64,000 bases of DNA, from positions 1 through 64,000 of the forward strand of contig CALKGK010000018.1 of NCBI GenBank assembly GCA_938085105.1. The letters run 5' to 3'. Position 1 is the stretch's first letter; each line of letters opens with the position of its first letter. Both the position numbers and the translations under genes were made by a program. A model generated the notes under the pieces. It did no database searches. It was not told the DNA's origin and worked only from the letters and a program-made list of their open reading frames with translations. This document shows, in pieces, positions 14,695 to 17,866 of this stretch. Source of the DNA: an uncultured Flavobacteriales bacterium. GTDB taxonomy: Bacteria > Bacteroidota > Bacteroidia > Flavobacteriales_D > Sanyastnellaceae.

Positions 14695-14727
14695 TTTGGT
14701 GGAGTAAAAAGAATGACGTATTATTGC
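14695..14727 (+). promoter_or_regulatory. Candidate promoter of the cysteine attenuator-operon
   Basis: TTTG at 14695-14698 and TATTATTGC at 14719-14727 (one mismatch to TAnnTTTGC) are separated by 20 bp, the spacing of the Bacteroidota -33/-7 promoter. Transcription would start at about 14731-14735, at or next to the ATG of the first leader peptide. The first leader may therefore be translated from a leaderless or nearly leaderless transcript. Confidence 0.5.
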
Positions 14728-14730
14728 ACT

Positions 14731-14781
14731 ATGAATACGAATTTTAATACATGCTGCTGTTGTCTTCCCTCGATGAGGTAA
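14731..14781 (+). CDS. Cysteine leader peptide 1 (16 aa, CCCC)
   Basis: Short reading frame encoding MNTNFNTCCCCLPSMR, with four consecutive Cys codons (TGC TGC TGT TGT, 14752-14763) and stop TAA at 14779-14781. Four cysteines in a row in a 16-codon frame directly ahead of a terminator and a cysteine-synthesis operon is the pattern of an attenuator leader. No Shine-Dalgarno is visible. It resembles leader 2: both begin Met-Asn-Thr, have Phe at position 5 and start their Cys run at residue 8. The peptide itself probably has no function beyond sensing Cys-tRNA supply through ribosome speed. Confidence 0.75.
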   Translation: MNTNFNTCCCCLPSMR

Positions 14782-14830
14782 GCGCCTGTGTGTATTCTAC
14801 AAATAATTGCACTAAGCCCTACCTCTAATC
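14772..14830 (+). promoter_or_regulatory. Predicted antiterminator pairing, attenuator 1
   Basis: GAGGTA (14775-14780) is complementary to TACCTC (14820-14825), and GAT (14772-14774) to ATC (14828-14830) after a 2-nt bulge, giving 9 bp. The downstream partner includes the loop-proximal half of the terminator 5' arm, so the two structures compete. The core upstream strand starts 11 nt after the last Cys codon and overlaps the leader stop codon. A ribosome stalled on Cys codons would leave it free; one at the stop would cover it. Confidence 0.55.
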
Positions 14831-14846
14831 AAGGTGGGGCTTTTTT
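14814..14846 (+). terminator. Attenuator terminator 1
   Basis: Eleven-bp stem AAGCCCTACCT (14814-14824) with AGGTGGGGCTT (14832-14842), one T-G pair, 7-nt loop, followed by six T (14841-14846). It sits 33 bp past the leader 1 stop and well before any structural gene, so it is a premature terminator. Confidence 0.85.
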
Positions 14847-14878
14847 ATTTTGGTTAATTATACATTGATTATTAAACG

Positions 14879-14947
14879 ATGAACACTTCTTTTTTCTCTT
14901 GTTGTCCATGTTGTTGTCTTACTAAACTGGTGAGAAGGGAAAACTAA
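14879..14947 (+). CDS. Cysteine leader peptide 2 (22 aa, CCPCCC)
   Basis: Second short reading frame, beginning MNTSFFSCCPCCC and then LTKLVRREN, with five Cys codons among six (TGT at 14900-14905 and 14909-14917) and stop TAA at 14945-14947. It is preceded by an A/T-rich stretch (ATTAAACG), the usual start context in Bacteroidota. The same layout as leader 1 points to a duplication of the sensor module. I see no separate promoter between terminator 1 and this frame, so both leaders probably lie on one transcript. Confidence 0.75.
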   Translation: MNTSFFSCCPCCCLTKLVRREN

Positions 14948-14984
14948 TGCTTGTTTATTAACAAAGATCAGGGCTCTTCTTCAC
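14930..14984 (+). promoter_or_regulatory. Predicted antiterminator pairing, attenuator 2
   Basis: GTGAGAAGGG (14930-14939) can pair with CTCTTCTTCAC (14974-14984), ten pairs with one G-T and one bulged T. The partner includes the upper three bases of the terminator 2 stem (14974-14976), so pairing would open that terminator. The upstream strand starts 12 nt after the last Cys codon and ends 5 nt before the leader stop, matching the geometry of attenuator 1. Confidence 0.55.
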
Positions 14985-15001
14985 AGTTGAGCCCTTTTTT
15001 T
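14970..15001 (+). terminator. Attenuator terminator 2
   Basis: Stem AGGGCTC (14970-14976) with GAGCCCT (14989-14995), 12-nt loop, followed by seven T (14995-15001). It lies 22 bp past the leader 2 stop and 34 bp before the cysteine synthase ATG, so any transcript reaching the operon must pass it. Confidence 0.85.
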
Positions 15002-15035
15002 ATCCTCGAAAATTGAATTACGAAAACATACACTC

Positions 15036-15989
15036 ATGACCATTCAACAAAACTTTAAACAAGAAGAGCAATTCGCACTCCTACAATCGCTCGAAGAGTT
15101 GTCTTATTATGTAGGCAATACCCCGCTGTACCCCATCAAGAACATGCACACGAACACAAAAGTGAAGGTGTTTGCTAAGTTGGAATGGCAGCAGTTTGGC
15201 GGAAGTGTGAAAGCCCGTCCTGCCTTCAACATCATCTGGAATGCGGTAAAGGAAGGCAAGCTGAACAAGGAAAACCGACTTTTGGACGCCAGTTCGGGAA
15301 ATACCGGAATCGCCTACGCTGTATTTGCCGCTGCGGCCGGAATTCCACTTACCCTTTGCGTACCAGAGAATGCCTCCAAAGAACGAAAGCACTTGCTCAA
15401 AGCGCTAGGCGCAGAAGTCATCTATACCAGTCCTTTCGAAGGAACGGATGGAGCGCAGCGGGTAGCGAAGGACATGTACAGCGCAAACCCAGAGCTCTAT
15501 TTTTACGCCGATCAGTACAACAATCCTTGGAACTGGCAGGCTCATTTCAATGGAACGGCGCAAGAGATTATTGAGCAAACCGAAGGAAAGGTGAGTCACT
15601 TCATCGCCGGATTGGGAACTACAGGAACCTTCACAGGAACTGGGCGAGCGCTCAAGGAATACAATGCTGAAATTCAAGTCATTTCCCTGCAACCCGAAAG
15701 CGCCTTGCACGGTTTGGAAGGTTGGAAGCATCTGGAAACGGCCAAAGTACCGGGGATTTATGATGCTCAACTCGCCGATCTAGAGCGGAGCATTGATAGT
15801 GAAAAAGCTTTTGAGATTTTGGAGCGGGCTGCCCGTTTGGAAGGACTCGCGATTTCTCCTTCGGCAGCGGCCAATTTAGCTGGAGCACTTGAATTAGCGG
15901 AGGAGCTAGAAGAAGCGGTGATTGTTACGGTGCTGGCCGACGATCAATCGAAGTATATGGACATCATTGCTCAACATTCCAAGGTGTAA
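15036..15989 (+). CDS. cysM: CysM-like cysteine synthase (PLP-dependent)
   Basis: Fold-type II PLP enzyme of 317 aa, predicted to form a cysteine from an activated serine (O-acetyl- or O-phosphoserine) and a sulfur donor, probably the carrier-protein thiocarboxylate encoded two genes downstream. Lys59 in GGSVKARPA is the PLP Schiff-base lysine, DASSGNTG (84-91) binds substrate, and GLGTTGTFTGTG binds the PLP phosphate. The SVKxRPA form is CysM-type rather than CysK-type. Aligned from memory, the Arg that gives mycobacterial CysM its O-phosphoserine preference (Arg220) falls on Lys in GWKHLE, keeping the charge. First gene of a four-gene operon (2-bp gap to the next), preceded by two cysteine attenuators. 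Confidence 0.88.
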   Translation: MTIQQNFKQEEQFALLQSLEELSYYVGNTPLYPIKNMHTNTKVKVFAKLEWQQFGGSVKARPAFNIIWNAVKEGKLNKENRLLDASSGNTGIAYAVFAAAAGIPLTLCVPENASKERKHLLKALGAEVIYTSPFEGTDGAQRVAKDMYSANPELYFYADQYNNPWNWQAHFNGTAQEIIEQTEGKVSHFIAGLGTTGTFTGTGRALKEYNAEIQVISLQPESALHGLEGWKHLETAKVPGIYDAQLADLERSIDSEKAFEILERAARLEGLAISPSAAANLAGALELAEELEEAVIVTVLADDQSKYMDIIAQHSKV

Positions 15990-15991
15990 TT

Positions 15992-16414
15992 ATGGCAAAT
16001 TTAATCTTACTTAAAGAGGTCGGTGAGGCCATGAACAAAGCGGCAATCGATGCTTTTCCCAATGAGTGCTGTGGCTTTTTCTTCGGACACGAGGTTGGTG
16101 AAGACCGTGTGGTGCAAGAAGTGATGCCCGTTGAAAACAGCAAAGAAGGAGATCAACGCAGGCGCTTTTCCATCGACCCGAAAGCGTACATGGATGCAGA
16201 GAAACATGCTTTAGCGATGGACATGAGTTTGCTTGGGGTGTATCATTCGCATCCGTCTCACCCGGCAATTCCTTCTGAACACGATTTAAAACAGGCCATG
16301 CCTTGGTTCAGTTATATCATCCTTTCTGTTGAAAAAGAGGCAGTGAAGAACACCACGTCTTGGCAATTGGATGAAGCGCGAAAATTTAAAAACGAAACAC
16401 TAAAACAACTTTAA
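15992..16414 (+). CDS. JAMM/MPN+ metalloprotease (Mec+/QbsD-like)
   Basis: 140-aa zinc protease of the JAB1/MPN+ family. The full JAMM signature is present: Glu25 (NECCGFFFG), then His85, His87, Ser95 and Asp98 in HSHPSHPAIPSEHD. In mycobacteria Mec+ releases cysteine from the CysO-cysteine adduct, and in Pseudomonas QbsD trims residues after the Gly-Gly of its carrier. Here both activities are plausible, because the carrier encoded next ends in GGIV. It is separated from the cysteine synthase by 2 bp and from the carrier gene by 1 bp. Confidence 0.88.
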   Translation: MANLILLKEVGEAMNKAAIDAFPNECCGFFFGHEVGEDRVVQEVMPVENSKEGDQRRRFSIDPKAYMDAEKHALAMDMSLLGVYHSHPSHPAIPSEHDLKQAMPWFSYIILSVEKEAVKNTTSWQLDEARKFKNETLKQL

Positions 16415-16415
16415 A

Positions 16416-16694
16416 ATGGCACAAGTAATTATTCCCACTCCATTGCGAAAATTCACGAATTCTCAGGCGAGGTTCGAAGCAGCTGGAAACACCGTTCAAG
16501 ATGTACTCAAGGCTTTGAGCACTCAGCACCAAGGCTTGAAAACCCATTTGCTGGATGAAAACGGAGAACTGAGGTCTTTTGTTCGAGTATATTTGGGCGA
16601 TGAGGACATCAACTTCCTTCAAAAGGGAGCAACCCCAATCGAAGCAAACAGCATTATTTCAATCATACCAGCCATCGCTGGAGGAATCGTTTAG
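16416..16694 (+). CDS. ThiS/MoaD-family sulfur carrier (CysO-like) with GGIV C-terminus
   Basis: 92-aa beta-grasp, ubiquitin-like protein predicted to carry sulfur as a C-terminal thiocarboxylate. It resembles CysO/MoaD (VIIPTPLRKFTN, FVRVYLGDEDINFLQKG, ISIIPAIAGG). The Gly-Gly needed for activation is at residues 89-90 but is followed by Ile-Val, so two residues would have to be removed before adenylation. The adjacent JAMM protease is the obvious candidate. It is flanked by the protease (1-bp gap) and the activating enzyme (2-bp gap). Confidence 0.85.
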   Translation: MAQVIIPTPLRKFTNSQARFEAAGNTVQDVLKALSTQHQGLKTHLLDENGELRSFVRVYLGDEDINFLQKGATPIEANSIISIIPAIAGGIV

Positions 16695-16696
16695 TT

Positions 16697-17866
16697 ATGG
16701 ACAAACTTAACTTTAGCAAACAAGAATTGGAGCGGTATAGCCGACACCTGATTCTTCCCGAATTCAACATCGAGGGTCAGAAAAAATTGAAGGCAGCCAA
16801 AGTGTTGGTGGTTGGTTCTGGCGGATTGGGCAGCCCTTTACTCCTTTATCTCGCTGCGGCGGGTGTGGGGACCATTGGGATTGTGGATTTTGATCACGTG
16901 GACGAGTCGAACCTACAAAGGCAGGTGCTTTTTGGTGTGGATGACATTGGCGTTCCCAAGGTGGAAGCGGCAAAACGTCGACTGGAAAAACTCAATCCGC
17001 ACATCGACATCAAGACCTACAACACCTGGCTCACGAGTGATAACGCTTTGGAGATCATCAAAGACTATGACGTGGTGGCTGATGGAACCGATAATTTTCC
17101 GACACGTTACCTCGTCAATGATGCCTGCGTGCTTTTGGATAAGGTGAATGTGTATGCGAGTATCTATCGTTTTGAAGGGCAGGCTTCGGTATTTAACGAG
17201 TTGTTGGAAGATGGAAGTAGAGGACCCAATTACCGCGATCTCTTCCCCACACCGCCACCTCCTGGATTGGTGCCAAGCTGCGCTGAAGGCGGGGTAATTG
17301 GAGTGCTTCCAGGGATTTTAGGCTCTTTGCAAGCCAATGAAGTGATCAAGGTATTGAGTGGAGTTGGATCGACCTTAAGCGGGCGATTGTTTTTGTTTGA
17401 TGCAGCCAGTTTTGAAACCCGAACCGTGAAGGTGCACAAATCGCCAGACAATCCACTAACGGGAGAGCATCCGAGCCAATCGGGATTGATCGATTACCAA
17501 CAATTTTGTTCGGGTGAAAGGCAGCCTGAAGAAGAGCTTGAAACGAAAATAAAGACGATGTCGGTAGAGGAATATTTGGCGCTTCGAACCAGTGGAGAAG
17601 CGCATCAATTGATTGACGTTCGCGAGCCCTTTGAGTATGAAATTGCGGAAATGGGGGGTGAATTGTTGCCCTTGGGAAGCATCGAAAAGAATGTTGATCG
17701 AATAGCGAAAGACCGCAAAGTGATTGTCCACTGCAAGGCCGGAAAACGATCTGCCGATGCCATTGAACGACTGCAAGGAGCTTTTGGCTTAAACAACCTA
17801 TACAACCTCGAAGGAGGAATTTTGGCTTGGGCTGAAAAGGTGGATGCCGACTTGGCGAAATACTGA
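16697..17866 (+). CDS. E1-like sulfur-carrier activating enzyme with rhodanese domain (MoeZ-like)
   Basis: 389-aa two-domain enzyme. Residues 1-250 are a MoeB/ThiF-type adenylating domain (VLVVGSGGLGSPL at 37-49, ESNLQRQ at 70-76, ADGTDNFPTRYL, Cys195 in VPSCAEGG). Residues about 288-386 are a rhodanese domain with active-site Cys346 in HCKAGKRS. It would adenylate the Gly-Gly end of the carrier and exchange AMP for sulfur from a rhodanese persulfide, as MoeZ does for CysO in mycobacteria. I see no CxxC zinc pairs of the E. coli MoeB kind. Last gene of the operon, closed by a strong terminator. Confidence 0.9.
   Translation: MDKLNFSKQELERYSRHLILPEFNIEGQKKLKAAKVLVVGSGGLGSPLLLYLAAAGVGTIGIVDFDHVDESNLQRQVLFGVDDIGVPKVEAAKRRLEKLNPHIDIKTYNTWLTSDNALEIIKDYDVVADGTDNFPTRYLVNDACVLLDKVNVYASIYRFEGQASVFNELLEDGSRGPNYRDLFPTPPPPGLVPSCAEGGVIGVLPGILGSLQANEVIKVLSGVGSTLSGRLFLFDAASFETRTVKVHKSPDNPLTGEHPSQSGLIDYQQFCSGERQPEEELETKIKTMSVEEYLALRTSGEAHQLIDVREPFEYEIAEMGGELLPLGSIEKNVDRIAKDRKVIVHCKAGKRSADAIERLQGAFGLNNLYNLEGGILAWAEKVDADLAKY

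Follow-up and report, generated by a model that had tools for sequence, protein, structure and literature searches.

The question raised by this locus is why two short open reading frames with runs of cysteine codons, each followed by an intrinsic terminator, should stand one behind the other ahead of a single operon. We studied it in a 64,000-nucleotide stretch of DNA from an uncultured Flavobacteriales bacterium, referred to here as the window. The earlier note had described both reading frames and their terminators, and had placed the second terminator 34 bp before a CysM-like gene; these coordinates turned out to be correct, the gap being that between the end of the T-tract of terminator 2 and the ATG at 15036. 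Upstream of the operon the following features were found.

14731-14781, + strand: leader peptide 1 (ORF1), MNTNFNTCCCCLPSMR, with CCCC (Cys codons 14752-14763); it has counterparts in the 10 tandem loci of the family
14814-14850, + strand: intrinsic terminator 1, including its T-tract (hairpin 14814-14842, T-rich tail)
14879-14947, + strand: leader peptide 2 (ORF2), MNTSFFSCCPCCCLTKLVRREN, with CCPCCC (Cys codons 14900-14917)
14970-15001, + strand: intrinsic terminator 2 (hairpin 14970-14995, T7 tract to 15001)

Terminator 1 has a predicted stability of -17.4 kcal/mol, which none of 200 shuffled sequences equalled, and terminator 2 reaches -13.3 kcal/mol; the latter was overlooked by the first terminator scan because of its long loop (12 nt). 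ORF1 contains four Cys codons and ORF2 five, and these are conserved among relatives. Such a combination is not a product of chance: the genome contains 27 TGY4 runs, and the automatic detector found a leader with a terminator at this locus only. When the 64-kb window was scanned for 14 amino acids, leaders 1 and 2 were its only short ORFs having both a run and a terminator.

Downstream of the leaders lies a set of four genes, the first of which is the cysM-like one.

15036-15989, + strand: cysM-like cysteine synthase (CysM/CysK family), first gene of the operon
15992-16414, + strand: Mec-like JAMM protease
16416-16694, + strand: CysO-like ThiS/MoaD sulfur carrier, C-terminus AGGIV
16697-17866, + strand: MoeZ-like ThiF and rhodanese sulfurtransferase

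The best solved relative of the CysO-like carrier is CysO of M. tuberculosis (3dwg_C, E=7e-13). In mycobacteria the CysO/CysM/Mec/MoeZ set makes cysteine from O-phosphoserine and the CysO thiocarboxylate (PMC3227635), and, as judged from its predicted proteins, the cysM-mec-cysO-moeZ operon matches this sulfur-carrier route to cysteine. In the carrier encoded here the GG is followed by IV, and thus it may need trimming before activation, for which the JAMM protease of the adjacent gene is a possible candidate. As to other amino acids, hisG had no match in the genome of the window and ilvB only a weak partial one, and therefore his and ilv leaders could not be used as a comparison; a possible auxotrophy for histidine and branched-chain amino acids, in an organism which retains cysteine synthesis, is suggested by the same searches. 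Matches resembling trpE and aspartokinase are present in the genome, and ahead of the trpE-like gene, which lies within the window, the scan for 14 amino acids found no leader.

Where, then, would transcription of this region begin? A generic sigma-70 scan gave no useful promoter, and we therefore applied the Bacteroidota promoter consensus TAnnTTTG (PMC7366714), which led to one candidate.

14695-14726, + strand: candidate promoter, with TTTG at 14695-14698, a 20-nt spacer and TATTATTG at 14719-14726

The TATTATTG box matches the consensus at five of six positions and ends 4 nt ahead of ORF1. This -7 box is imperfect in the window; the boxes of relatives usually match better, and a TAnnTTTG box is found 4-8 nt upstream of the ATG of most first or sole leaders. 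Its location just ahead of leader 1 suggests that this leader is probably near-leaderless. In the same promoter scan no TAnnTTTG box was found ahead of leader 2, which suggests that both leaders are placed in series on one transcript.

We next turn to the relatives. The ortholog set comprised 18 genomes of the family and order, that of the window included, with CysM identity of at least 53%. The Cys runs, which the earlier note had expected to be conserved, are indeed kept ahead of the same operon, and so are the terminators: none of the 18 operons lacks an upstream Cys-run ORF with its terminator, and within the family a strong hairpin and a T-tract come after every Cys-run ORF. The Cys run is the chief conserved part of the leaders, and their length, flanks and C-termini are free to vary. 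The MNT-x-F start, which the earlier note had made part of the leader motif together with the Cys run, fared less well, as it occurs in some relatives only and is not essential. Conserved clusters of cysteines might also be expected if the ORFs encoded functional cysteine-rich peptides that bind thiols or metals, and if the hairpins only served to separate transcripts. We regard this as very improbable, since little besides the Cys run is kept, whereas the RNA pairing described below coevolves. In four of the ten tandem loci the leaders are separated from cysM by a peroxiredoxin gene and are still found at the 5' end; two loci of the same genus (L003 and L004) differ exactly in this insertion. 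Altogether, a peroxiredoxin gene opens the operon in this position, after the Cys leaders and before cysM, in L003, L006, L008, L013 and L074.

If the terminators respond to the position of a ribosome, an alternative pairing should be available to each of them. For every element we tested the stretch from the last Cys codon to the terminator for pairing with the 5' arm of that terminator, and in the window the following structures were predicted.

14775-14785, + strand: 5' arm of antiterminator 1, overlapping the ORF1 stop codon; its 3' arm (14816-14825) lies within terminator 1
14930-14939, + strand: 5' arm of antiterminator 2; 3' arm at about 14974-14984
14764-14782, + strand: possible protector hairpin 1 (strand 1:2), from the MFE fold
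14918-14934, + strand: possible protector hairpin 2, -6.5 kcal/mol, shuffle p 0.015

The pairing of antiterminator 1 (-11.1 kcal/mol, shuffle p about 0.03) and antiterminator 2 (-12.6 kcal/mol, p about 0.04) is moderately above that of shuffles in the window itself, and the signal of antiterminator 1 is far stronger across relatives. Of the 28 elements in the family set, 15 beat their shuffles at p<=0.05 (Fisher 1e-14), while four (L002.2, L013.2, L014 and L016) paired no better than shuffles. Column-wise covariation on MAFFT alignments was dropped because gaps misplace the arms, and we compared instead the pairing of each antiterminator with its cognate terminator and with mismatched ones. 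The mean pairing energy was -14.9 kcal/mol for cognate and -10.4 kcal/mol for mismatched arms (permutation p=5e-5; 57 representatives of 66 elements, near-copies excluded), and cognate pairing was also favoured in the family set alone (p=0.003 for leader 1, 0.027 for leader 2 and 0.008 for single leaders), although all these p-values are guides only, relatives being non-independent. By this comparison of sequences the two arms coevolve, and the antiterminator is mutually exclusive with the terminator, which is the covariation that the earlier note had proposed to test.

The spacing of the arms is just as regular. In 95% of elements, compared to 45% of shuffles, the antiterminator arm starts 20-40 nt past the first Cys codon, and its distance from the Cys codons is far less spread than in shuffles (Levene p=5e-14); the distance from the stop codon, by contrast, varies widely among elements. 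A fixed distance from the Cys codons is what would be expected if a ribosome stalled there must keep the arm free. For both leaders of the window a protector hairpin is predicted that joins the end of the Cys run to the antiterminator arm, and across elements its signal is weak (mean z -0.6, Fisher p 2.6e-4). Such a 1:2 hairpin is present in trp and is not universal among attenuators.

A terminator/antiterminator switch would also be present in a riboswitch or a T-box, in which case the Cys codons would be incidental. This seems scarcely credible to us, as no Rfam family of leaders, riboswitches or T-boxes was matched at threshold or gathering score, and the alignments lack a conserved aptamer-like block.

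To what extent is this arrangement spread beyond the order? A tree of 98 orthologs was built from the 18 of the order set and 80 more from a scan of named genomes. In a clade of 58 operons from Bacteroidota and Balneolota, a Cys leader with a terminator precedes 49 (34 single and 15 tandem), three, all from Balneolota, have a Cys run and no T-tract terminator, and six have no leader. Among the other 40 operons (Acidobacteriota, Armatimonadota, Chloroflexota and others) a leader was found in three and none in 37. Seven additional orthologs from the class likewise have a leader. The detector seems specific, with 65 sense matches in the 98 operon upstreams as against two antisense and two in reversed sequence, and 84.6 kb of unrelated cysK/CBS loci yielded no match; no convincing Cys leader was seen before other genes of the relatives in the part of the matches covered.

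Several loci deserve separate mention. The operon labelled Rhodopirellula MED697 (L065) has the same leader type, and its CysM sits at branch length 0 among the relatives of the window, so that it is probably a misbinned contig. Outside the main clade, a Cys leader with a terminator occurs in an Ignavibacteriota genome and two MAG contigs (L131, L123, L103), one of the contigs being labelled Acidobacteria, which may reflect either transfer or misbinning. In L076, L078 and L105, cysM and its neighbours form part of a larger siroheme/sulfite-reduction operon, and no Cys leader was found within the sequence reached, which ends short of the operon start.

The three Balneolota loci (L059, L063, L113), in which the Cys run directly precedes the stop codon and no T-tract terminator follows, possibly use a different attenuation, translational or Rho-dependent; in the two Fodinibius loci among them an inverted repeat follows. 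They also bear on whether ribosome stalling at the polycysteine codons might act throughout by exposing the start of the next gene. Polycysteine leaders of this kind are known from mycobacteria, where leaderless short ORFs of M. smegmatis act by translation attenuation (Canestrari et al. 2020, as cited in PMC9031893 and PMC13236596); in that type a terminator is absent and the stall frees the downstream ribosome-binding site. For the operon of the window we consider such a mechanism very improbable, as every element of its family carries a strong hairpin and a conserved T-tract, and the alternative pairing is aimed at the 5' arm of the terminator.

The remaining question is whether both leaders matter. 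The tandem arrangement pointed out by the earlier note is kept in 10 of the 18 close operons and recurs in Saprospiraceae, and the tandem state changes at least three times on supported branches of the tree. In one Saprospiraceae operon (L061) the two leader copies show 82% similarity, suggesting that they arose by a separate and recent duplication. One view is that a single checkpoint does the work, the other being a relic or a fine-tuner. A single leader is the state of 34 of the 58 clade operons, and leader 2 has the weaker antiterminators on average (mean z -1.2 versus -2.8 for leader 1). However, Cys runs, terminators and cognate pairing are kept in both leaders over many genera of the family, in which a leader resembles the leader at the same position in other genomes more than the one beside it. 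We thus find it rather unlikely that only one checkpoint counts. The likeness by position suggests that the pair probably predates the genera compared and that both of its members were kept separately.

Cognate antiterminators, their fixed distance from the Cys codons and their conservation all support the ribosome-mediated attenuation proposed in the earlier note. On this comparative evidence we consider it very probable that a single cysM-mec-cysO-moeZ transcript is controlled by two ribosome-mediated transcription attenuators in series. We infer translation of the leaders, stalling, termination and a response to cysteine as follows. Transcription would start at the ATG of leader 1 or a few bases ahead of it. 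When Cys-tRNA is plentiful, the ribosome would pass the Cys codons and cover the end of the ORF, so that terminator 1 forms and transcription halts. When it is scarce, the ribosome would stall on the Cys run, and the sequence past its leading edge could pair with the 5' arm of terminator 1. With terminator 1 averted, RNA polymerase would continue to leader 2, where the test is repeated, and the operon would be expressed only when both checkpoints were passed. The presumed gain from the pair is lower leakage and a steeper response. Sharp responses from rare codons and multi-step races are a property of the published attenuation model (PMC1183508); that two checkpoints would sharpen them further goes beyond that model and is our own suggestion. 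With moderate confidence we extend this to a phylum-wide Bacteroidota cysteine attenuator of the sulfur-carrier pathway, repeatedly duplicated to give two serial checkpoints for the same signal, of which the first is near-leaderless and the second internal, with ribosomes loaded in two ways.

Antiterminators, a probable near-leaderless start, the sulfur-carrier operon, the spread in the phylum and a cysS precedent (uORFC-8-2) were not part of the earlier note. If the proposed mechanism is true, Bacteroidota would have a well-supported cysteine sensor, and their terminators would be governed there by ribosome position, which implies coupling of transcription and translation at least in the leaders. 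The CysO/CysM/Mec/MoeZ route, studied in mycobacteria, would be linked, in a second phylum, to a defined regulatory RNA. Moreover, the natural series of single and double checkpoints poses the question why a cell should test one signal twice.

In a literature search covering few subscription papers, we found neither a cysteine attenuator in Bacteroidota nor a tandem pair responding to the same signal for any amino acid. What appears new is a terminator-based attenuator with Cys codons in Bacteroidota, in tandem for one signal, though priority is not proven. Attenuation by leader peptides is suspected to act ahead of amino-acid operons in Flavobacterium psychrophilum (PMC9723704), and the available part of that paper's main text names neither a cysteine leader nor a tandem arrangement. 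The nearest terminator-based precedent is uORFC-8-2, the cysS leader of Rhodobacterales (PMC8632094), which likewise pairs a Cys-codon uORF with an intrinsic terminator and is predicted to work by ribosome-mediated attenuation, but has two Cys codons in one element, upstream of cysteinyl-tRNA synthetase and in Alphaproteobacteria. The polycysteine leaders of Actinobacteria (PMC1262725) are also short ORFs with Cys runs before cysteine or sulfur genes; unlike those described here, they have no conserved terminator. The leader of Salmonella mgtCBR also contains two short ORFs that each serve as an attenuator (PMC3641672); there the signals differ (ATP and proline), whereas here both consist of cysteine codons.

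The trp, his and leu attenuators of Proteobacteria share with our elements a leader ORF with cognate codons, a terminator and a mutually exclusive antiterminator at a set distance, and possibly a protector hairpin, though this is weakly supported here. The present locus differs from them in its amino acid, cysteine, in its phylum, Bacteroidota, in a first ORF that is probably near-leaderless, and in having two complete attenuators in series.
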